Below, in pieces: positions 13,099 to 32,361 of a stretch of DNA of 37,069 bases (positions within the stretch are counted from its first letter, which is position 1; each line of letters starts with the position of its first letter). This DNA is from a virus, in the IMG/VR virus record IMGVR_UViG_3300048591_000451, positions 1 to 37,069 of that record, one strand, 5' to 3'. The notes under the pieces are model-generated. The model searched no databases. It was not told the DNA's origin and saw only the letters and a program-made list of their open reading frames with translations. The position numbers were made by a program, and so were the translations under genes.

Positions 13099-15570
13099 TT
13101 ACATTAGTACGCCGGTTGATAATCTAATTTCACGAGGCGAATTTTTTATAACTGTTCTCGCCAAAGTTCTACCATCTAAATTCATGATAATAGTTTGTTC
13201 TCTATTACCTAACATTGAATCCAATCTATCAAGTGGTATAACTGCTTCTTGACCTTTTTCACCAATTAAGGCATTTGTCGGCCCTTGTGTTATACCACCA
13301 CTAGCAAGTTTTAATTTGCCTTGTAATCCCATAACAGTAGCAATCATAGCGCCCATTGCAGCAATCGCCAAAATCGGCCCAATAATTGGGATACCGGCTT
13401 GTGAACTTGCTGCGCCCGAACCGGCTACAATTGCGTTGTTTGCAATCATAGTTTTTGAACTGGCAACACTTGAAGCCGTAGCAATTCCTGCTGTTGTAAT
13501 TGCATCAGCCTGTACAATTTTTGAAGTTACACTGCTTACAGTTCTTTTCATTAATTCAGTCATTAACCATTGCATACCCATTTTAACTATATTTTGAATT
13601 ACAAAATCAGCTAACGATTTAAACATAGACTTAAATGTTTCAGCAAAACTAGCACCGTCTAAAATCATATTAGAAATGCCTTGCGAAAAATTATTAAAGA
13701 CATTGTCCCATAACCCGCTTACAACAGTCGAGGCAGTAATCATAGAGTTTTCTATATGTTCTGCCAATTCCGTCCAAATTGTTTTTTGCGATTCTATTTT
13801 ATCTTTTAAATTTGTATCGTCTGATTGTTTTAAATCAGCGGTACTACTTCCACCAACACCAATAAAAGAAGGCATTTCATTTTTTGCCATTGATTTAATA
13901 TTAGGGTCTTCCTGTGCAACTTCTGGAACTGGCTTCTGTTTTGCTTTTCCAAATGGATTAAAATCACCAAGTAAAGAAAGCGAACCAATTGCTAAATTTT
14001 TCATATATTCAAGTGCCGAAGTAAAAGCGCTTTTTGCCCCATCGGCAACAGTATCCCAAGCACCACCCATTTTAGATTTTACCCAGTCGGCAGTATCACC
14101 AATCGCACCTTTAACACTGCTACCAATTCCGATTAATGTTGCGTCGAAATCTTCTGCCATATCATTTAATTTTACTTCAATTTTTGTTGCTTCTTCTCTA
14201 AAACTATCTGAAAAACCAGTAAATTTAGGATTATTTATTTCTTGTTTTAAATCACCAATTGAAGTATTAATGCCCATTATAGCATTAGTTGCAAGTCTTG
14301 AAGCCTCATCAAAACCCTTGCCGATATTTGCCAAAAATACGCTTGTTTCAATAGCCTTTTCCATGCTTTGAAGCAATATGAGAATTGCTGGCCCAAATTT
14401 ATCAACAATTACTTTTGCATTGTCTGCAAAAATTCCTGCCAAACCTGCAAAGGCAACTATTGCCATTCTGATTATTTGAATTACACTTCCAATTATTACA
14501 ACAATTGGCAAAGCTACCGAAGCAAAAGCAGAAACAGCAGTTACCATTGCCCCAACATTTGCAACAAAAAAGGCAAATGCTTTTGAAATCAAAGAAGCGG
14601 TAAAGGCTAAAACACTAGAAATGGCAACAGCCAAACCTTTAATTAACGACCAAATTATACCTGTTGCTGTAATTAATGCAGTGCTTAATGTTCCCACAAC
14701 CGTAATCAAAGGCGGAAGCAAAACGGCAAATGCTAGAACGGTCATTGCACCACGCTTAACAGAATCGTCAAGTGAAATAAAATAGTCAATTAAGGGCATT
14801 ATTTTATCAATCAATGAGCTAACGATAGGAATTAATTCTTTTCCAAAAGTTTCTTGCAAAGTTTTTACTTTTGCATTGAATCTGTTCATCACTTCGCCCC
14901 AACCTTCTTGCGACTTGGAAGTGCTTCCTATTGATTTTTCAAAAGTTTTATGAAGCAAGCTAGACATAACTAAAGCTTTGTCACGCTCATTTAATTGTTC
15001 TTTTGTTTTATTAATTCCTAAAATAAACGCTTCATTTTCTATTTCTGCATCAGATATAGAAATACCTAATTGTTTTAATGATTTTACATTTCCGGTTAAA
15101 CTAGAAGTAAATGCTTCCATTACTTTTGAATCAGATATTCCTTTTAAACTAGCAACATCAATTCCAAGTTGAACTAATGACCGTGATAAATCTCCGGCTT
15201 CTGATTCCGTTAAATCCATTGAAGTAAAAAGGCTACCAAATTCGGAAGCATAATTCTTCAAATCAGTTGTATTTCTTCCAAATATTTTAGATAAATTTAA
15301 TAAAGACTTTTCTATTTTAGGAGCAGAATCGCCAAAAACGGCAGTAATTCTGCCGTTAGCGTCTTCCGCCTCACCTGCCATTTTTAAAAGAGATTTTGAT
15401 ATTAATGTAGCAGGCAAAGCAAGCGCAACCGACATTTTTGCGCCTAATGTTTGAATATTTTTAGTGATTTTTTTTGTTGAATTAATTACTTCACTTACGG
15501 ATTTATTAAGATTTTTTGAAAAATCTTTTGTAAGTAATTCAAGTTTAACGCTTAATGTTTTTTGAGCCAT
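13099..15570 (-). CDS. Tail tape measure protein
   Basis: This 823-residue protein sets tail length and fills the tail tube before DNA ejection. The N-terminal part (residues 1-290) matches TP901-type tape measure proteins, with the RITAVFGDSAPKIEKSLLNL and LGIDVASLKGISDSKVMEAF blocks. Several hydrophobic segments lie between residues 275 and 400, as usual for the membrane-inserting part, and there is a Gly/Ala-rich C-terminal region (about 695-760). The closing part with ASGGITQGPTNALIGEKGQE and VIPLDRL is a common tape measure end. It starts with ATG at 15570 inside the end of the chaperone extension ORF, an overlap of 26 bases. By the known rule of about 0.15 nm per residue, the tail would be roughly 120 nm; this is an estimate. 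Confidence 0.93.
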   Translation of the reverse strand: MAQKTLSVKLELLTKDFSKNLNKSVSEVINSTKKITKNIQTLGAKMSVALALPATLISKSLLKMAGEAEDANGRITAVFGDSAPKIEKSLLNLSKIFGRNTTDLKNYASEFGSLFTSMDLTESEAGDLSRSLVQLGIDVASLKGISDSKVMEAFTSSLTGNVKSLKQLGISISDAEIENEAFILGINKTKEQLNERDKALVMSSLLHKTFEKSIGSTSKSQEGWGEVMNRFNAKVKTLQETFGKELIPIVSSLIDKIMPLIDYFISLDDSVKRGAMTVLAFAVLLPPLITVVGTLSTALITATGIIWSLIKGLAVAISSVLAFTASLISKAFAFFVANVGAMVTAVSAFASVALPIVVIIGSVIQIIRMAIVAFAGLAGIFADNAKVIVDKFGPAILILLQSMEKAIETSVFLANIGKGFDEASRLATNAIMGINTSIGDLKQEINNPKFTGFSDSFREEATKIEVKLNDMAEDFDATLIGIGSSVKGAIGDTADWVKSKMGGAWDTVADGAKSAFTSALEYMKNLAIGSLSLLGDFNPFGKAKQKPVPEVAQEDPNIKSMAKNEMPSFIGVGGSSTADLKQSDDTNLKDKIESQKTIWTELAEHIENSMITASTVVSGLWDNVFNNFSQGISNMILDGASFAETFKSMFKSLADFVIQNIVKMGMQWLMTELMKRTVSSVTSKIVQADAITTAGIATASSVASSKTMIANNAIVAGSGAASSQAGIPIIGPILAIAAMGAMIATVMGLQGKLKLASGGITQGPTNALIGEKGQEAVIPLDRLDSMLGNREQTIIMNLDGRTLARTVIKNSPREIRLSTGVLM

Positions 15571-15931
15571 TTTCTAAAGCCTTTTTCTTGTTTAGTTCAA
15601 TTAAGCGTTTAGTGATATTTTCTTTTCTTAAAGCCTGTTTTTCTTCGGTAGTCATAAACATTTTTTCAAATGCTTCAGCCTCGTCTTCTGGCGTTAACAA
15701 CGACTTGGCTTTTATTTCTTCCCAATTAAAAAGCTCTTTAGGCTTCAACATCTTTTTAACATGCGGTGCTGTCAAATAGCTAATCTGCCAACTCGCTAGT
15801 TCGTACTTCTCTTTAAAGTCTTGCTCTTTGTATAAATACATGTAGTCAATATCTTTGCAGGTCATATCCCAAAAATCTTTTGGTTTTATGCCTATTTCGG
15901 ATATTGCAATTTCATAATATTTATTAATCAA
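15545..15931 (-). CDS. Tail assembly chaperone, frameshift extension part (gpT-like)
   Basis: This ORF encodes about 128 residues before the tape measure gene, but its only nearby start is a TTG at 15931 without a good ribosome binding site. In the same frame it is open upstream to the nine-A run at 15976-15984. A -1 shift there, after codon 102 of the preceding chaperone gene, gives a product of 245 residues: 102 from the first ORF, 15 linking residues and these 128. This is the conserved G/GT arrangement described in lambda and in most siphoviruses, in which both products help the tail tube form around the tape measure. The sequence itself (KYYEIAISEIGIKPKDFWDM, then basic C-terminus) fits the tail chaperone extension type (GT-like, with tryptophan-aspartate/YMYLYKEQ). 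It is best annotated as a frameshift extension, not a separate gene. Confidence 0.8.
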   Translation of the reverse strand: MINKYYEIAISEIGIKPKDFWDMTCKDIDYMYLYKEQDFKEKYELASWQISYLTAPHVKKMLKPKELFNWEEIKAKSLLTPEDEAEAFEKMFMTTEEKQALRKENITKRLIELNKKKALENGSKNIKR

Positions 15932-15945
15932 TTCCTTAAAGGTTT

Positions 15946-16281
15946 TTATCTCTTTTTCTTCGCCTGTTCCGATTCTTTTTTTTTCATTTCTTTAAACAAG
16001 GCGCTTTCTTCTATTGTTTCGTTAATCAATTCCATTAGCTTATCAATGCCATTTTTTTCTACGAAGTCATCTAATAAATTTTTGAAATTTTTTAAGTCTA
16101 GCCCGTCATTATCACCAGATATGCAAGCCTCGACAAAATTTGAAACAACTGTCAAATCGCCCTTGTTTAAATTTTTAAAAAAGTCTTCAATGCCAACCGC
16201 ACCGAAAACAGTTTTTAAGTAATCAAAAGCAGAAAAGCCAAAACGCAATCGTCTTGGCCTGTCTAATTGTATAAATGCCAT
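15946..16281 (-). CDS. Tail assembly chaperone (gpG-like)
   Basis: This 111-residue protein is the short form of the tail assembly chaperone. It has a beta-like start (MAFIQLDRPRRLRFGFSAFD) and then a helical body (FFKNLNKGDLTVVSNFVEAC, NLLDDFVEKNGIDKLMELIN), as in the family of small chaperones just before tape measure genes. The C-terminus is a Lys/Glu-rich tail. Near its end it runs through the slip site ATGAAAAAAAAAG, which allows a share of ribosomes to shift into the extension ORF. The start is ATG at 16281 behind GGGAG with a run of A between. It follows the tail tube gene directly, the usual order tube, chaperones, tape measure. Confidence 0.8.
   Translation of the reverse strand: MAFIQLDRPRRLRFGFSAFDYLKTVFGAVGIEDFFKNLNKGDLTVVSNFVEACISGDNDGLDLKNFKNLLDDFVEKNGIDKLMELINETIEESALFKEMKKKESEQAKKKR
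15976..15984 (-). promoter_or_regulatory. Nine-A slip site for -1 frameshift between chaperone ORFs
   Basis: On the minus strand the zero frame reads ATG AAA AAA AAA GAA. Slipping back one base on the last AAA gives AGA, which is the frame of the extension ORF. A AAA AAA G is a known slippery heptamer type. Transcriptional slippage adding one A would have the same effect. No clear downstream stem-loop was identified by eye. Confidence 0.8.
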
Positions 16282-16319: not shown

Positions 16320-16751
16320 TTACGGCAAAATTAAAGTCTGTGGTTTTCCGCAACCTTGAAATGAACCGCTAATCATAACAGCGTCTTCGAGTGCGTTCTT
16401 TTCTTCCCACGATTTTACTAAAACCGTACCTTCAAAATATTTTGCACCGCTGACATCATTAGGTCGATATTGAAAAATCAATTCGCTACCTTCTGTAATG
16501 CCACCAAGTACGGCTTCTTGTCCCGGGTCAGCTTCCAACGAAATGACTTCGATTGATACTTCCCATTCTTTCAAGCCTTCAATGAATTCCTTCCAACCAT
16601 CTACCGAATCAAAAGAAGTAACATCAATTGGCGTCATGTTTTTTGAAATGCTCATGTCTTTAGCATTTGCGACTACTAAATAAGTAGAACCGCCATCCGT
16701 AGATACATACGGCTTGCCTTTATATCCCGCTACACCTTTACCGCAACCCAT
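16320..16751 (-). CDS. Major tail tube protein
   Basis: This 143-residue protein is likely the tail tube subunit, placed just before the tail chaperones. The pattern GYKGKPYVSTD, KDMSISKNMTPIDVTSFDS, EFIEGLKEWEVSIEVISLEA, DPGQEAVLGGI and then EDAVMISGSFQG fits tail tube proteins of the TP901-1 major tail protein 2 family, which form hexameric rings stacked into a tube. The length is typical for one tube domain without an added Ig domain. The start is ATG at 16751 with AAAGGAAA upstream. A second, clearly related tube domain occurs at the junction 20455-20018, where it is fused to other domains. Confidence 0.85.
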   Translation of the reverse strand: MGCGKGVAGYKGKPYVSTDGGSTYLVVANAKDMSISKNMTPIDVTSFDSVDGWKEFIEGLKEWEVSIEVISLEADPGQEAVLGGITEGSELIFQYRPNDVSGAKYFEGTVLVKSWEEKNALEDAVMISGSFQGCGKPQTLILP

Positions 16752-18015: not shown

Positions 18016-18870
18016 TTACCCTAAATTAATTTCAATTTGAACAATCGGACGAATTCTTCCTACACGATAAACAAAATCACTTAAACAAAGTTTTGCGCTA
18101 TAGGAATCACAATTATTATTTTTTCTTGTGTAAATTATTTTATTTTCAAAAATTGAACATTTATAAATAGATTTTTGGTCTGCAACAATTGCCTTAACTT
18201 CTAAAGTATCTAAATCTAGTTCATCGGTAAAATGACAATCATTTGTTTGTTGTTTTCCAATATTGCTAGGATAAGTAAGCAATAATTTATTTGTGCCATA
18301 AACAAATGAAATTCTCCTTACAAAACCACATAAACCTATTGCAATTTTTCTAATTACTTTGGCTTGTTTGTTTTCTACAACAATAAAAGCATTGCCGATA
18401 TAAGAACTCGCAACTGCTTTATATTTAATATTTTCAGCAACACAATAAGACCTTAAACCCATTATTTGCGGTATAAATTCAGGCTCGCCAAGAGAATTTA
18501 AATCGTCGCCTTTTCTTCTATATGCTCTATATATTGGTTTTCTATGGCTTACTAAATCCTCACGAGTATATATTAAATTTATTTTACCTTGCCCATCAGT
18601 AAAAGCCGAAGGCGAGCAATAAACATTTTTTAAATCATCTTGAAAAATATTTTGCTCATTTGTAGCAATTCCTGTTTCCAAATCTATATCGCAAGTATAA
18701 ATAGAATAATCTCGGTAATATGTTTCCGTACCCATATCATGCAATTGCCTGTATCCCTGTTCTTCTAACTTTGTATCATCTAAATTAGCACGACAATACA
18801 AAAGTTTATTGCCACCAATTAAAAAAGGCATGTGCCTATGATAACTATTATTTGAAAAATTTATTTCCAT
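18016..18870 (-). CDS. Hypothetical beta-rich protein, 284 residues
   Basis: No family is recognised. The correct start is ATG at 18870, directly after the stop of the tube/LRR ORF (TAAAATG); a longer frame upstream overlaps that ORF and looks non-coding. The protein repeats a motif of short strands with aromatic and Asp residues: LIGGNKLLYCRANLD, YSIYTCDIDLETGI, KINLIYTREDL, NAFIVVENKQAKVI, NKLLLTYPSNIG, ENKIIYTRKNN. This looks like a beta-propeller of several blades. It has no signal peptide. It is linked by position to the beta-rich/tube/LRR locus and may be a virion surface or glycan-binding protein, which is inference. Confidence 0.55.
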   Translation of the reverse strand: MEINFSNNSYHRHMPFLIGGNKLLYCRANLDDTKLEEQGYRQLHDMGTETYYRDYSIYTCDIDLETGIATNEQNIFQDDLKNVYCSPSAFTDGQGKINLIYTREDLVSHRKPIYRAYRRKGDDLNSLGEPEFIPQIMGLRSYCVAENIKYKAVASSYIGNAFIVVENKQAKVIRKIAIGLCGFVRRISFVYGTNKLLLTYPSNIGKQQTNDCHFTDELDLDTLEVKAIVADQKSIYKCSIFENKIIYTRKNNNCDSYSAKLCLSDFVYRVGRIRPIVQIEINLG

Positions 18871-18871
18871 T

Positions 18872-20470
18872 TTAATACAACCAACTTCTTGGCAAAGCCA
18901 AAGGATTAAACTGTTCAACAGGTAAAATTTCTGAATATTTCGGAGTATAAGTAATAAGACTTTCAGCTTCTGCAAGCGTAATTCCCTTATCACTTGCAAT
19001 TTGTGCAATTAAAAGCGTTATATCATCAAGCGGAGATAATTCAAGTTCTGATATATCTAGCTTTTCAAGTATAATAAAGTCTTTACACAATTGAGGAAAC
19101 ACGGAAGCCACAAGCAAAGAACTATTAGCCGTTAATTTTCTTGACTCCCAATAACCATTTCCGTAGAAAGCATCGTTAGGGTAACGGTTTAAAGCAAAGT
19201 ATAGCTCTTTTACTTTTAGTTTATCGCAATTCCAAAACGAAACAATATTTTTATTCACATTCAAATAGTCAAGCGTGCTTGGATTCGGTGCGCTTGTAAA
19301 ATTGCTAAACAAAAATTGCTCTGTGATAAAGTTATAACTCAAATCTAAATACTTGATCGTGTCGGCAAAGTTTACCAGTGCGCTTGACCATTGGCCTAGA
19401 AGATTGTGGTCAGCCTTTAAGTATTTAAGTTCTAGGTCTTGAATCGACTCAATGTCCGTAAAGCTTAAATCATTGAAAGATATGTTGACGCCTGTCAACC
19501 CTGTTAGTGTTCCAATGATCGTAAGGTCTGAAAGCCTCATGTTCGATAGGTCTAATATATAATCTGGGTTTGCAGGGAAGAAGCTATAAACCAAAAGAAT
19601 CCACACATCGGAAGCGTTTCCGTTATGGCCCAATGTGATACCTACCAATGAAGCCAATTTCTTTATGATCTGAATTTGCCCGAAATTGGTTGTCTTTTCG
19701 GCAATCTCAACGAATTGCTCATACTTTGTAAGCGAATTATTAGGAATATAAGCACTATCTCGACATAAATAGCGATAAACGACATGAACGGGGCAACCGC
19801 TTAGGCCGGCACCACTGGCATTAAGCGTGATCGTTCCAATGTCTCCGGTGCCTGTCTCAATCGGTTCAAAGGTTTTCTCAACTATCCAACCAGTAGAGCC
19901 GGCCGGTGCCTTTGGGGCCTCAAATGTTTGGCCATTAAACATATAAATATTTTCATTCAATTCCTCACAACAGATATTATTGCAAGTGATTAAATTAGCC
20001 TGTTTCTCGAACATTCTTTGTAAAGGGCCTGTGCCAAGAATGGCAAAGCTATTGTTTACGGCATCTTGTGTGCTTTGTTGAATGCCAACAGAAACAACAA
20101 ACCCCATACCAATACGAACGGTGCGATAACCACGGGTTCCGAAGTCTTTATTTCTAACTAGCTTAATCCAAACCCGTTCATGATTGTCGATTGCTTCCCT
20201 TAATCGTTCTTGACCGGCATCGTCTTCAATATAAACATTTGAAATTGTTACTGACCAACGCTTAAAAGAGGCTTCAAATTTTTTATATTTATTATCTCTT
20301 TGAAGTTGACCGTATGTTGAAATATCGGTCATTTCAGATTGAATATTTAATTTGAAATTAAGAATAGCGCCAACTTTTACGAATTCAGAATCAGCACAAT
20401 TAGCATCTTTACGAAGCCAAATTTCGCCTTTGTAGCCGTTCTCGCCTATTCCACAAGAAAAAATGCCGTT
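18872..20470 (-). CDS. Tail-tube-like domain plus leucine-rich repeats, -1 frameshift extension of the upstream ORF
   Basis: The first ATG in this frame is at 20332 (486 residues), but the frame is open to 20476 and the 46 upstream codons are clearly coding. They supply SCGIGENGYKGEIWLRKDA, which matches the start of the tail tube protein (MGCGKGVAGYKGKPYVSTD). Further matches are KKFEASFKRWSVTI with KEFIEGLKEWEVSI, DDAGQERLREAI with ADPGQEAVLGGI, and QDAVNNSFAILGTGPLQ with EDAVMISGSFQGCGKPQ. A full tube domain therefore requires entry from the upstream ORF by a -1 shift. No ATG, GTG or TTG lies in the 46 codons. Residues 258-395 (counted from the ATG) are leucine-rich repeats: YILDLSNMRLSDLTIIG, GVNISFNDLS, IKYLDLSYNFI, LDYLNVNKN. 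The linker between has four Cys. The fused product would be about 1190 residues. Confidence 0.75.
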   Translation of the reverse strand, partial: NGIFSCGIGENGYKGEIWLRKDANCADSEFVKVGAILNFKLNIQSEMTDISTYGQLQRDNKYKKFEASFKRWSVTISNVYIEDDAGQERLREAIDNHERVWIKLVRNKDFGTRGYRTVRIGMGFVVSVGIQQSTQDAVNNSFAILGTGPLQRMFEKQANLITCNNICCEELNENIYMFNGQTFEAPKAPAGSTGWIVEKTFEPIETGTGDIGTITLNASGAGLSGCPVHVVYRYLCRDSAYIPNNSLTKYEQFVEIAEKTTNFGQIQIIKKLASLVGITLGHNGNASDVWILLVYSFFPANPDYILDLSNMRLSDLTIIGTLTGLTGVNISFNDLSFTDIESIQDLELKYLKADHNLLGQWSSALVNFADTIKYLDLSYNFITEQFLFSNFTSAPNPSTLDYLNVNKNIVSFWNCDKLKVKELYFALNRYPNDAFYGNGYWESRKLTANSSLLVASVFPQLCKDFIILEKLDISELELSPLDDITLLIAQIASDKGITLAEAESLITYTPKYSEILPVEQFNPLALPRSWLY

Positions 20471-22443
20471 TTTTTTTCATCGCACGAATTTACATTCGTT
20501 ATGACGCCGGCTAATGTTCCAGTTATCGTACTGAGCGGTGTCTTTCGAAGCTCAGCAGAACTTAGAACAATTATTGTTCCATCAACAGTTAAATTAAAAT
20601 TATTAGTACACCATGCACCGGCTAATATAACTAAATTATTTAGCCCATTATCTCCGGCTTGACCATTGTCAATAGTGATTGCGCTCAATTGAGTAACCTT
20701 ACCGCTAGGCTTGTTTACTTGCCATATACCGCTATCAAGTTTACCGTCCGATGAAGTTACTGTTTGGTCTGACGCACCATTTAAAAGAAATGTTGGTGAA
20801 GTCGCTAAAACTCTACTTGAATATAAATTGTTTTGCTCAACATTTCCACCTATGCGAACCATAAACCCTGCACCAATAACATTTGCAGTCGTTGCCGTTG
20901 AACTCTTTTTATAGTAGCCGTTAATTGTAAGGCTTGAACCTAAAGTTAATGAAGCGGTTAAGCGTGCGAAACTAAAATTGCTTAAAGTCCAACCGTTAGT
21001 AGTTAAAAGCAAAGCGGTTCCTACCGCAGTATTTGCAAACAAACCGCCACCAATTAAGCTACGATTAAACACCGAAGCAATGCCTATAATAAAATCAGTA
21101 CCTCGACAAATAATTCCTTGCGAACCCTCATTAAATGTGCCTAGTGTTGAGACAAAACGCAATAAATCTAATACGCCGGCGCCTTGATTATAAATACCGC
21201 CTGTTTGATTGAATGCATCAGGTATTACTAAGTTGAAACCGTTTTGATTAAAGGTTCCGCTTATCATATTGAAGTCGTTAGTAGCGCCTAACATTGTAAA
21301 GTTAGACATTAGCGTAACAGTACCGCCCGACTTATTAACATCGATTGGAACTTGATAAGATGCTACTGAACTTGTAAAGCTTTGAGCGCCTGTACCGTTA
21401 AATATTGCTCCCGAACAATTTCCATTTGCAGTAAGGATAGATAAATTTCCTCTAAATCTAACTGGTGGGAAATTGTTAGCTCCTGTTTGGGCATTTAAAA
21501 TAAAATCACCTTCGCATTGTATTTGAGTTCCTGCCCAACCAACACCTACACCACTAGTACAATTTTGTTCTAGGTGGTGAAATTGTCCGTTGGTTATTGT
21601 TATTCCGTTATTTGTGAATCTAGCGATAGCCTTTTTTGAATTCCAGTTTATTGTTCCTACAATATGATTCCAGTTTCCATACCAAGCAAAATCATTAATA
21701 ATATTTAATGTACCGCTAGGTTTGTTTATTGTAATTGCATTTACTACTATTGCGCCTGTAACATTGAAGTCTTGATTTCCTGTTCCTTCAAAAACAACAG
21801 AAACGCTACCTAGTGCGAATGTAACATTACCTTTAACATAGGCAACCAATGACCCACCATTTGCATAATTATTTAGAGTTCCAACTAAATTATTTGCAAC
21901 ATATATTCCTGTTCCTGCTAATGTACAACTTGGACACATATTAAATTCAAAATTGTAGAATGGATACCCGATTAAATTTCTTGCATTTGTGTGATTGCTT
22001 CCGCTAATTAACATCGTTCCATTATTATGATTAAATACACCGCCTGTAATATCAAGGCTATAAGTTCCGATTCCTGCGACGCCTACCGTGTGTACTCCGC
22101 TTGTGCTTGTGAAAGTTCCTGCGGTCATTACGAATCGGCTTGAACTGCTTCCAGTTATTGCGGAAGATGAACCAACAAAAACGCCTCCGTTTACTGTCCA
22201 CCAAGCAGAACCATAATTAATAGTAAAAGCATTTTGAGTAAAGGTATTTATATACCCTGCGCTCATTAAAATACCTTGAACATTTATATTAACTTCAAGA
22301 CTTAAATTACCACTATTGGCATCAAGAATAATTCTGTCGCCCGAAGCAGGAACGCTTGCACCGGAAGCACCGCCGGAAGTCGTTGACCAATTGGCGGTAG
22401 TGTTGAAATTTGTACCAACATTTAAAAAATAGCGATCAGCCAT
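20446..22443 (-). CDS. Large beta-rich (beta-helix-like) virion protein, 665 residues
   Basis: The protein starts at ATG 22443, two bases after the upstream stop region. It opens with RYFLNVGTNFNTTANWSTTS and SVPASGDRIILDANSG, a motif found at the start of many beta-helical phage and cell-surface proteins. The rest is a long run of short strands rich in Gly, Asn, Thr and Ser, for example AGTFTSTSGVHT, SGTFNQNGFNLVIPD, and NKPSGTLNIIND paired with NKPSGKVTQLSA. No catalytic site is evident. It ends seven codons after a nine-A run (20469-20477), and a -1 shift there fuses it to the tube/LRR ORF. It is therefore probably an exposed virion domain carried on a tube-like base. Confidence 0.7.
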   Translation of the reverse strand: MADRYFLNVGTNFNTTANWSTTSGGASGASVPASGDRIILDANSGNLSLEVNINVQGILMSAGYINTFTQNAFTINYGSAWWTVNGGVFVGSSSAITGSSSSRFVMTAGTFTSTSGVHTVGVAGIGTYSLDITGGVFNHNNGTMLISGSNHTNARNLIGYPFYNFEFNMCPSCTLAGTGIYVANNLVGTLNNYANGGSLVAYVKGNVTFALGSVSVVFEGTGNQDFNVTGAIVVNAITINKPSGTLNIINDFAWYGNWNHIVGTINWNSKKAIARFTNNGITITNGQFHHLEQNCTSGVGVGWAGTQIQCEGDFILNAQTGANNFPPVRFRGNLSILTANGNCSGAIFNGTGAQSFTSSVASYQVPIDVNKSGGTVTLMSNFTMLGATNDFNMISGTFNQNGFNLVIPDAFNQTGGIYNQGAGVLDLLRFVSTLGTFNEGSQGIICRGTDFIIGIASVFNRSLIGGGLFANTAVGTALLLTTNGWTLSNFSFARLTASLTLGSSLTINGYYKKSSTATTANVIGAGFMVRIGGNVEQNNLYSSRVLATSPTFLLNGASDQTVTSSDGKLDSGIWQVNKPSGKVTQLSAITIDNGQAGDNGLNNLVILAGAWCTNNFNLTVDGTIIVLSSAELRKTPLSTITGTLAGVITNVNSCDEKKTAFFLVE
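20469..20477 (-). promoter_or_regulatory. Nine-A slip site for -1 frameshift into the tube/LRR ORF
   Basis: On the minus strand the zero frame reads GAT GAA AAA AAA ACG. Slipping back one base on the second AAA gives AAC GGC, the frame of the tube-like domain. The context ATGAAAAAAAAA is the same as in the chaperone slip site at 15976-15987. Transcriptional slippage adding one A, or a homopolymer sequencing error, would also join the frames. Confidence 0.65.
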
Positions 22444-31181: not shown

Positions 31182-31783
31182 TTGGCTTTATTTTTTTTAT
31201 TATCTATCGTAACGGATTTAATTTTATAGCCTTGAGCTAACAATAATTCATGATTAATTGTTTGCTCGTCCTTGTCTTCACATTCGATTTCAAGGAAGTA
31301 CTCAACATCTTTATTTGACGGTGTGTCTTTGGTTGGCTGACTAATTGGTGGTGTAACGATTTTAGGAATATCAGGAAATACAAATTCTTTCATGACATCC
31401 TCAACCTTGAACTCATTTAATTTGCAGAAATTAATCAATCCGTCTTGCGTCATAGTTCCAAATTGCGAAGTTAAGGCTAAAACCTTTTTCTTCGCTTGCT
31501 TTATGTTGTCTGCCTCGACTAATGACACTGGGATAAGTGGGATTTCGTAGCCTTCATCACGCATTTTTTTTAATGCAGTATGTCTTTGATGTCCTCCCAA
31601 AATATAATTTTTACCTTCATTTTGCCAAATAGAAATGGGCTCCGAAAATCCCAAGTCAGTTATAGACAATTTTATTTTTTGATAGTTTTCTTCACTAAGA
31701 TTTTTCAGGTCATGCTGAAAATGAATCATTTCTTCTATACTCATTAAATCAGCGCCCGAACAAACTATTTTTATTTGTTTCAC
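31178..31783 (-). CDS. ParB/Srx-like nuclease domain protein
   Basis: I choose GTG at 31783 as the start: it overlaps the HNH gene stop (GTGA) and has GGGGG 9 bases upstream, whereas the longer frame starts with TTG. The 201-residue protein has a ParB N-terminal-like domain: LSEENYQKIKLSITDLGFSE, the ParB box PISIWQNEGKNYILGGHQRH and TALKKM, with Gly-Gly-His-Gln-Arg-His as the nucleotide-binding core. Proteins with this domain are common beside phage terminases, sometimes with methylases, and some bind or cut DNA. The C-terminal 60 residues are unassigned. The start overlaps TerL (ATGA), so a packaging link is plausible. Confidence 0.8.
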   Translation of the reverse strand: MKQIKIVCSGADLMSIEEMIHFQHDLKNLSEENYQKIKLSITDLGFSEPISIWQNEGKNYILGGHQRHTALKKMRDEGYEIPLIPVSLVEADNIKQAKKKVLALTSQFGTMTQDGLINFCKLNEFKVEDVMKEFVFPDIPKIVTPPISQPTKDTPSNKDVEYFLEIECEDKDEQTINHELLLAQGYKIKSVTIDNKKNKAK

Positions 31784-32361
31784 TGTATATGCCCCCAATT
31801 AGTTCTGTTTTTTATTCTTCTTGCTTGCGTATCTGATATTGAATATTTATTGCAAATATCTTTATAGCTTAAATCTGAATTTCTAATCTCGATGACTTGC
31901 TTTTCTGTTAATTTACTTCTTCCGCTAGCAACACCAACAACATTTTTTTTGCCTAAAACATTTCTTGAATGTCTTTCGTTTTCTAAAACCGTACACCATT
32001 CTAAATTTTCTATTCTATTATTTAGTTTGTTTCCGTCTTTATGGTTTACAATATTTTTATTATCAACCAAATCAATAAATGTCATCGCAACCAATCTATG
32101 AACCGGCACAAATTTTCTTTTTCCGAAACCTTCATTTATCCATATTCTTTGGTATCCGTCTTTGTCTAAATATTTTTCACATATAGCCTTTGAATTACGA
32201 CTTAAAGATAAATTCACAACATGACCGGATTCATTAACAAAATAATTTTTATATATTGTTTGCCTATATCCACGAATTGACAAAAAATCTATAACATTTG
32301 CAATATTTTCTTTTGTTATTTTTTCGGGAAAATTTTTTAATAAAGCAATTTCAATCTGCAT
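31780..32361 (-). CDS. HNH homing-type endonuclease
   Basis: This 193-residue protein has the three-part build of free-standing phage homing endonucleases. A NUMOD4-like part comes first (NYFVNESGHVVNLSLSRNSK, then YLDKDGYQRIWINE, then VPVHRLVAMTFI). An HNH nuclease centre follows (VNHKDGNKLNNRIENLEWCT, with His107, Asp109, Asn113/115). A C-terminal helix-turn-helix ends it (KLTEKQVIEIRNSDLSYKDI, then ISDTQARRI). Such genes insert between phage genes and copy themselves by cutting phage DNA that lacks them. It overlaps the upstream lipoprotein gene by 11 bases and the ParB gene by 4. An HNH gene near a terminase can also aid packaging as HK97 gp74 does, but the domain set here fits homing better. 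Confidence 0.85.
   Translation of the reverse strand: MQIEIALLKNFPEKITKENIANVIDFLSIRGYRQTIYKNYFVNESGHVVNLSLSRNSKAICEKYLDKDGYQRIWINEGFGKRKFVPVHRLVAMTFIDLVDNKNIVNHKDGNKLNNRIENLEWCTVLENERHSRNVLGKKNVVGVASGRSKLTEKQVIEIRNSDLSYKDICNKYSISDTQARRIKNRTNWGHIQ

Follow-up and report, generated by a model that had tools for sequence, protein, structure and literature searches.

A probable -1 frameshift on nine adenines would place a tail-tube-like domain behind a large beta-rich phage protein

Tube proteins are extended by frameshifting in phage SPP1 (gp17.1/gp17.1*), in the Listeria phages PSA, A118 and A500 (tsh) and in the lactococcal 936 phages (TpeX) (PMC8718954, PMC6669499, PMC5009743); in these systems the 0-frame product is the tube protein that builds the tail, and the shift adds an immunoglobulin (Ig)/FN3 or carbohydrate-binding domain. 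A -1 shift gives the capsid protein an Ig-like extension in T3 (gene 10) and in Lactobacillus phage A2, the extended form being a minor virion protein (PMC5009743). In virion frameshifts of this known kind, a shell or tube protein gains a small domain for display. Here we describe a locus in a 37,069-bp viral record (IMG/VR IMGVR_UViG_3300048591_000451, 33% G+C; the whole record is referred to as the window) in which this order is reversed: the open reading frame (ORF) of a surface-type, beta-rich protein ends just after a run of nine adenines (A9), and the -1 frame behind the run encodes a second, tail-tube-like domain followed by putative leucine-rich repeats (LRRs), while the main tube gene is separate (Table 1). 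As in the SPP1, Listeria and 936 phages, there would be two forms of a virion protein, the longer arising by a frameshift near the end of an ORF, and a tube fold would be combined with a surface-exposed domain. The locus is nevertheless not of the SPP1 type, because its 0-frame product is something other than a tube protein and the tube-like domain is reached only after the shift; ORF order and tube homology thereby bear out the original prediction that the arrangement is opposite to the known tube extensions. In T3 and A2 a shell protein gains a display domain, whereas here a surface protein would gain a putative anchor and LRRs. A published description of a tube-like domain behind the shift was not found in open-licence papers. 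We consider it likely that two proteins arise here from a single start, by way of a programmed -1 shift at A9.

The 0-frame ORF encodes 665 residues and the -1 ORF comprises 534 codons, spanning the tube-like domain, a middle domain and the LRRs, with its first ATG, GTG or TTG only at 20332. The sequence around the A run is GATGAAAAAAAAACGGC (longer stretch: GATGAAAAAAAAACGGCATTTTTTCTTGTGGAATAGGC). An in-frame slippery heptamer of the X_XXY_YYZ form, A_AAA_AAA, is present at 20476-20470 within the overlap of the two ORFs, and the run as a whole falls within the 8-9 or more A or T at a frame change that mark candidates for transcriptional slippage. Read in frame, the codons GAT GAA AAA AAA ACG lead to D E K K T A F F L V E stop, whereas slipping back by one base on A_AAA_AAA would give GAT GAA AAA AAA / AAC GGC, translated as D E K K N G I F S C G I G E N G Y K G. 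The predicted fusion (...SCDEKKNGIFSCG... / ...NVNSCDEKKNGIFSCGIGENGYK across the junction) would contain 658 + 532 = 1190 residues. Stop-to-stop ORFs and the junction sequence show that the coordinates, the count of nine A's, the absence of a start until 20332 and the length of the fusion had all been predicted correctly.

A DNA pattern for CGxGxxGYKG, a motif at the start of the tube-like domain, identified two relatives whose tube protein is about 70% identical to that of the window phage: IMGVR_UViG_3300022707_000821 (G002; 39,929 bp) and IMGVR_UViG_3300049857_000025 (G003), the latter related throughout the head and tail genes. In G002 the tube/LRR ORF has a homologue over its full length, with 53% protein identity over residues 1-533 and 56% identity at the DNA level, and G002 has the same junction (TGTGAAAAAAAAACGGC; longer: TGTGAAAAAAAAACGGCTCTTTTTTATGCGGTTTAGC), with A9, the same TGA opening and the same -1 frame. 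Its 0-frame product ends ...DDCEKKTALFYAV (also given as ...VDDCEKKTALFYAV), with a stop shortly after the run (tail TALFYAV*), and its -1 frame reads KKNGSFLCGLALQGYLGEIWLRND without an ATG, GTG or TTG. In the 1.6-kb DNA alignment of the two phages, identity extends furthest without interruption over the 15 nucleotides of TGAAAAAAAAACGGC. The upstream ORF of G002, 910 codons and beta-rich, is very diverged, but its last ~52 residues are 48% identical up to the slip site; by the same reckoning its predicted fusion would be ~1430 residues long. Since so distantly related a phage keeps the same arrangement, it is very probably genuine rather than an artefact of sequencing. For codons 12-49 of the -1 frame, the proportions of nonsynonymous (pN) and synonymous (pS) differences between the window and G002 are 0.34 and 1.05 (saturated), and 19 of the 38 residues are identical; both other frames of the start-less stretch contain stops. 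The stretch is therefore translated in the -1 frame from upstream of the ATG at 20332, in agreement with the earlier view that the codons between the end of the 0-frame ORF and 20332 are coding.

Possible local starts were scored against 27 presumed starts of the window phage, whose context scores range from -5.4 to 9.7. The ATG at 20480 scores -14.3, with a Shine-Dalgarno energy of -1.7 kcal/mol and thus effectively no Shine-Dalgarno sequence, and the ATT at 20464 scores -15.0. The G002 counterpart of the ATG is a GTG with a Shine-Dalgarno energy of -0.2 kcal/mol; presumed starts mostly lie at -4 to -10. Because local starts either have poor context or vary in G002, the simplest interpretation is entry from the upstream ORF. 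Such -1 entry at A9 had been proposed from the window alone, and comparison of the junction in related genomes was one of the checks suggested for it; the retention in G002 of A9, of both frames and of the missing start, together with the selection on the start-less codons and a similar shift in the chaperone gene (below), strengthens the proposal.

The assignment of the tail-tube-like domain to the Phage_tail_2/TP901-1 type of tube fold rests on several lines of comparison. The first 160 residues of the -1 ORF match the major tail protein profile phrog_1407 (3e-15), and the ORF matches PF06199 at 7e-5 (23.3 bits, slightly below the curated cutoff of 23.8). BLASTP aligns it with the phage's own tube protein at 7e-9; as in the original prediction, the alignment starts at CGxGxxGYKG, residue 8 of the open frame and 41 residues before the first ATG. 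An alignment profile of the domain matches the monocin tube (9e-12) and SPP1 gp17.1 (1e-3). A structure model built with related tube domains has modest confidence (predicted local distance difference test, pLDDT, about 55-75 in the domain), and the best fold matches of its residues 11-162 are tail tubes, with Z up to 9.7 over 114-128 residues; the solved tubes of 80alpha/SaPI1, monocin, SPP1, lambda (gpV) and a gene transfer agent were aligned from residue 11-17 to ~160. Strands are predicted at residues 15-22 and 33-47, ahead of the ATG at 20332, so that in the model the start-less codons provide the first strands of the tail-tube fold. The C-terminal LRR matches are weak and below curated cutoffs in both homologues (LRR_4, 0.0024; LRR_1, 0.011). 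A protein without assigned function (18016-18870, minus strand) is encoded directly 3' of the tube/LRR gene, which it overlaps at its 5' end; it is kept in G002 (41%) and was not found in the examined part of G003, which lacks the LRR half as well, and it may act jointly with the LRR part.

The 0-frame protein belongs to a widespread phage family. A DNA pattern for W-S-x-x-S-G-G-A-x-G-A-S-V-P, a motif near the start of the 665-residue ORF, occurs in at least 120 viral contigs. The proteins found in this way begin MADRYWVGGTGTW..., and the window protein is a member of this 'MADRYWVGGTGTW..NWSxxSGGxxGASVP' family (also MADRYWVGG/WSxxSGGxxGASVP), having both the N-terminal motif and the aromatic C-terminal end. 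The latter, F[FL][LMFI] followed by 1-3 residues, closes 19 of 73 distinct complete members (for example NFFLVF, NFLMFF and TFFLMF), compared with 0.4% of shuffled tails, and TAFFLVE* agrees with it. With eight A's the 0-frame end would become RHFFLWNRRERL... and run on; the agreement of TAFFLVE* with the usual family C-terminus thus favours nine A's over eight or ten. The conserved aromatic end may be an attachment peptide. A start-less out-of-frame ORF follows none of the 74 other complete family genes; where out-of-frame ORFs overlap their ends, these have a normal start near the stop or are opposite-frame artefacts. The window protein has no Pfam match, and its model, mostly beta, is of low confidence (mean pLDDT 48) without a structural match below E 1. 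The family with its recurrent aromatic end is very common in viral contigs (L004-L123). Lactococcal neck passage structure proteins are likewise large accessory surface proteins that carry binding domains and are proposed to be neck-bound (PMC6669499). They differ in having an N-terminal domain that is BppU-like, not tube-like, and in lacking a frameshift; an identity of the window protein with them was dropped, as they start with that BppU-like domain.

In the tail assembly chaperone gene of phage lambda a -1 frameshift yields G and GT, and versions of this shift on A-runs are found in many phages. The window phage has one such G/GT-type shift, on the A9 run at the end of its chaperone gene (ATGAAAAAAAAAG; 15945-15991), and the slip sites of the chaperone genes in G002 and G003 (A_AAA_AAG or A8G) also serve -1 shifts; this lineage thus makes repeated use of -1 slipping on A-runs. 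The direction and the kind of slip sequence are the same at the junction described here. Unlike the chaperone, which is not in the finished virion, the fusion would probably be structural. Nine A's suffice for RNA polymerase slippage, and A_AAA_AAG and A_AAA_AAA serve ribosomal shifts (PMC5009743, PMC3711429). In Thermus dnaX and in Shigella mxiE and spa genes, transcriptional slippage occurs where a conserved change of frame coincides with a run of nine A (or T) (PMC5009743, PMC3711429); the window junction resembles these in its A9 and differs in that the run also holds a ribosomal heptamer. The slip may accordingly be ribosomal, on A_AAA_AAA, or transcriptional, with A9 giving A10 mRNA, and the data fit both. 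In reporter tests, 6-7% shifting was measured for two chaperone cassettes (PMC3711429); by analogy, this suggests that the fusion would be a minor product.

According to this interpretation, most decoding would end in frame after DEKKTAFFLVE* and yield a free 665-residue beta-rich surface protein with its native C-terminus, and a fraction would slip by -1 on the A run and yield the 1190-residue protein, in which the beta-rich part is followed by the tube-like domain and the LRR domain. We infer that the fusion protein is made, at a low level, and, going one step further, that its tube-like domain would dock it at the tail or neck, whether inside or on the surface, and would thereby anchor a minority of the adhesin, together with the LRRs. 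The beta-rich and LRR parts would then face outward from the docked domain. As a separate tube protein exists, the tube-like domain may be placed in the tube, the neck or elsewhere. Should the fusion become part of the particle, this would amount to a new way for a tail to display a large protein, the number of anchored adhesins being set by how often slipping occurs, and a paralogue of the tube protein would serve as a docking module. It is a serious possibility, which we put forward tentatively, that the shift gives one adhesin two alternative C-terminal anchors, the FFLVx end or the tube-like ring with its LRRs, and hence two sites or amounts on the virion; the frameshift would then choose an anchor instead of adding a display domain. 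For annotation, gene callers would place the start of the second gene wrongly, at 20332, and so miss the initial strands of the fold; in phage tail modules, a systematic look at start-less ORFs that follow A-runs is worthwhile.

Several points weigh against a programmed shift that produces the fusion. The conserved junction was seen in one relative, G002, hence in two phages in all. Sterically, it is unusual for a ring-forming tube fold to bear 660 extra residues at its N-terminus. A conserved stimulatory RNA structure was not found at the junction (z about -1 in the window; z about -4 in G002, with a stem ~20 nucleotides from the run). An RTG triplet (ATG in the window, GTG in G002) lies directly 5' of the A run in both phages, and transcripts with eight A's could yield a free protein from it. 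Finally, in G003 the tube-like protein (L176:6301-7578, minus strand) is encoded separately and starts at an ATG of its own, so such a protein can function unattached. A relative with a separate start had been named as a finding that would speak against the shift; G003 does have such a start, but its protein is only 36% identical in the domain and has a different C-terminal half, and no beta-rich gene directly precedes it, a glycine-rich protein (PF21722) being encoded further upstream. The G003 arrangement therefore indicates that the tube-like domain is a separate module in this lineage, of which the frameshifted linkage is one arrangement; the domain seems to be a swappable carrier. Across the three genomes the linkage may have been either gained or lost.

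The alternative that fares best, although we judge it unlikely, is that transcriptional slippage mainly makes A8 transcripts, from whose ATG or GTG a free tube/LRR protein (M-KKNGIFSCGIG...) would be translated, with the fusion a by-product or absent. Nine A's are a classic length for transcriptional slippage (PMC5009743, PMC3711429), the RTG stands in the right place in both phages, and the phage's own tube protein and the G003 tube-like protein begin a few residues before the homologous block. The RTG is, however, partly a consequence of the TGA before the run, neither triplet has a Shine-Dalgarno sequence, and the start context in the window is the worst of all scored apart from the ATT at 20464; moreover, a free gene needs no conserved slip site, and G003 uses a plain ATG.

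We regard it as very improbable that translation of the tube/LRR gene begins by termination-reinitiation on a non-canonical codon in the overlap, either ATT at 20464 or ATA at 20449. The upstream stop is nearby and MFSCGIGENGYKG would then resemble the MGCGKGVAGYKG of the tube protein, but G002 has TCT in place of the ATT and TTA in place of the ATA, and the first ATN codon shared by the two phages (Ile19) would drop the conserved KKNGxFxCGxxxxGYxGE block; the start context is very poor, and the conserved A9 would be left unexplained. Equally hard to sustain is phase variation, in which A8, A9 and A10 genomes in a population would switch the fusion on and off: poly-A is slippery for DNA polymerase, often in surface-protein genes (PMC3711429), yet both assembled genomes have nine A's, the length that keeps the native 0-frame end, and the chaperone gene, which is not phase-variable in kind, uses the same device. 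Least credible of all is a sequencing or assembly error or a fixed indel, with a true run of eight (a free gene) or ten (a plain fused gene), since, although homopolymers are error-prone and the run length comes from one assembled contig, the independently assembled, 56%-identical G002 also has exactly nine, eight or ten A's would destroy the conserved 0-frame end (TAFFLVE* / TALFYAV*), and the other main ORFs of the window contain dozens of runs of at least seven without obvious breaks; the eight- or ten-A outcome named earlier as a refutation is thereby made unlikely.

Searches for further relatives gave no additional junction. Peptide patterns for both proteins found no close relatives in viral contigs, and tblastn against INPHARED phages gave no match, whether the query was either of the two proteins, a homologue from G002 or G003, or a 64-residue C-terminal piece. 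Scans based on the capsid returned only a 4.3-kb fragment that ends short of the junction (L002) and a distant contig (L003), with no match among genome contigs, where a search with the tube/LRR alignment also had no match.

Table 1. Coordinates of the junction and related features in the window
Feature	Position	Strand	Remarks
0-frame ORF	22443..20446	-	stop to stop; TAG at 20448-20446
-1 frame ORF	20476..18872	-	stop to stop
A9 slip run	20469..20477	-	conserved in G002
Dual-coding stretch	20446..20468	-	0-frame tail TAFFLVE*; -1 frame NGIFSCGIG
15-nucleotide block	20465..20479	-	identical in G002; contains the TGA closing the -1 frame upstream
Out-of-frame ATG directly 5' of the A run	20478..20480	-	would start the tube/LRR ORF only upon loss of one A
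Start-less codons between the 0-frame stop and the first ATG	20333..20445	-	purifying selection in the -1 frame
Tail-tube-like domain	19985..20470	-	to ~residue 163 of the -1 ORF; profiles, BLASTP and fold matches
Tail tube protein of the window phage	16320..16751	-	PF06199; paralogue of the tube-like domain
Second A9 run	15976..15984	-	end of tail assembly chaperone gene (16281..15946); T ORF (15991..15545) open in the -1 frame

Around the slip site, an upstream hairpin (ACGAAT-GTAA-ATTCGT) was rejected as a functional element, being absent from G002. A very stable fold is predicted 3' of the slip site in G002 (L182:6455-6550; 80-nucleotide windows in the lowest 0.3-0.4%) and has no counterpart in the window. 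The window contains no Rfam match and no tRNA. Its gene order on the minus strand is siphophage-like: terminase, portal, protease, capsid and connectors precede the junction region, which is followed by HK97-gp10-like tail completion, tail tube, tail assembly chaperone and tape measure genes. Among the terminase genes, an ORF at 31780-32361 (minus strand) resembles an HNH homing endonuclease (NHKDGNKLNNRIENLEWCT) by eye.

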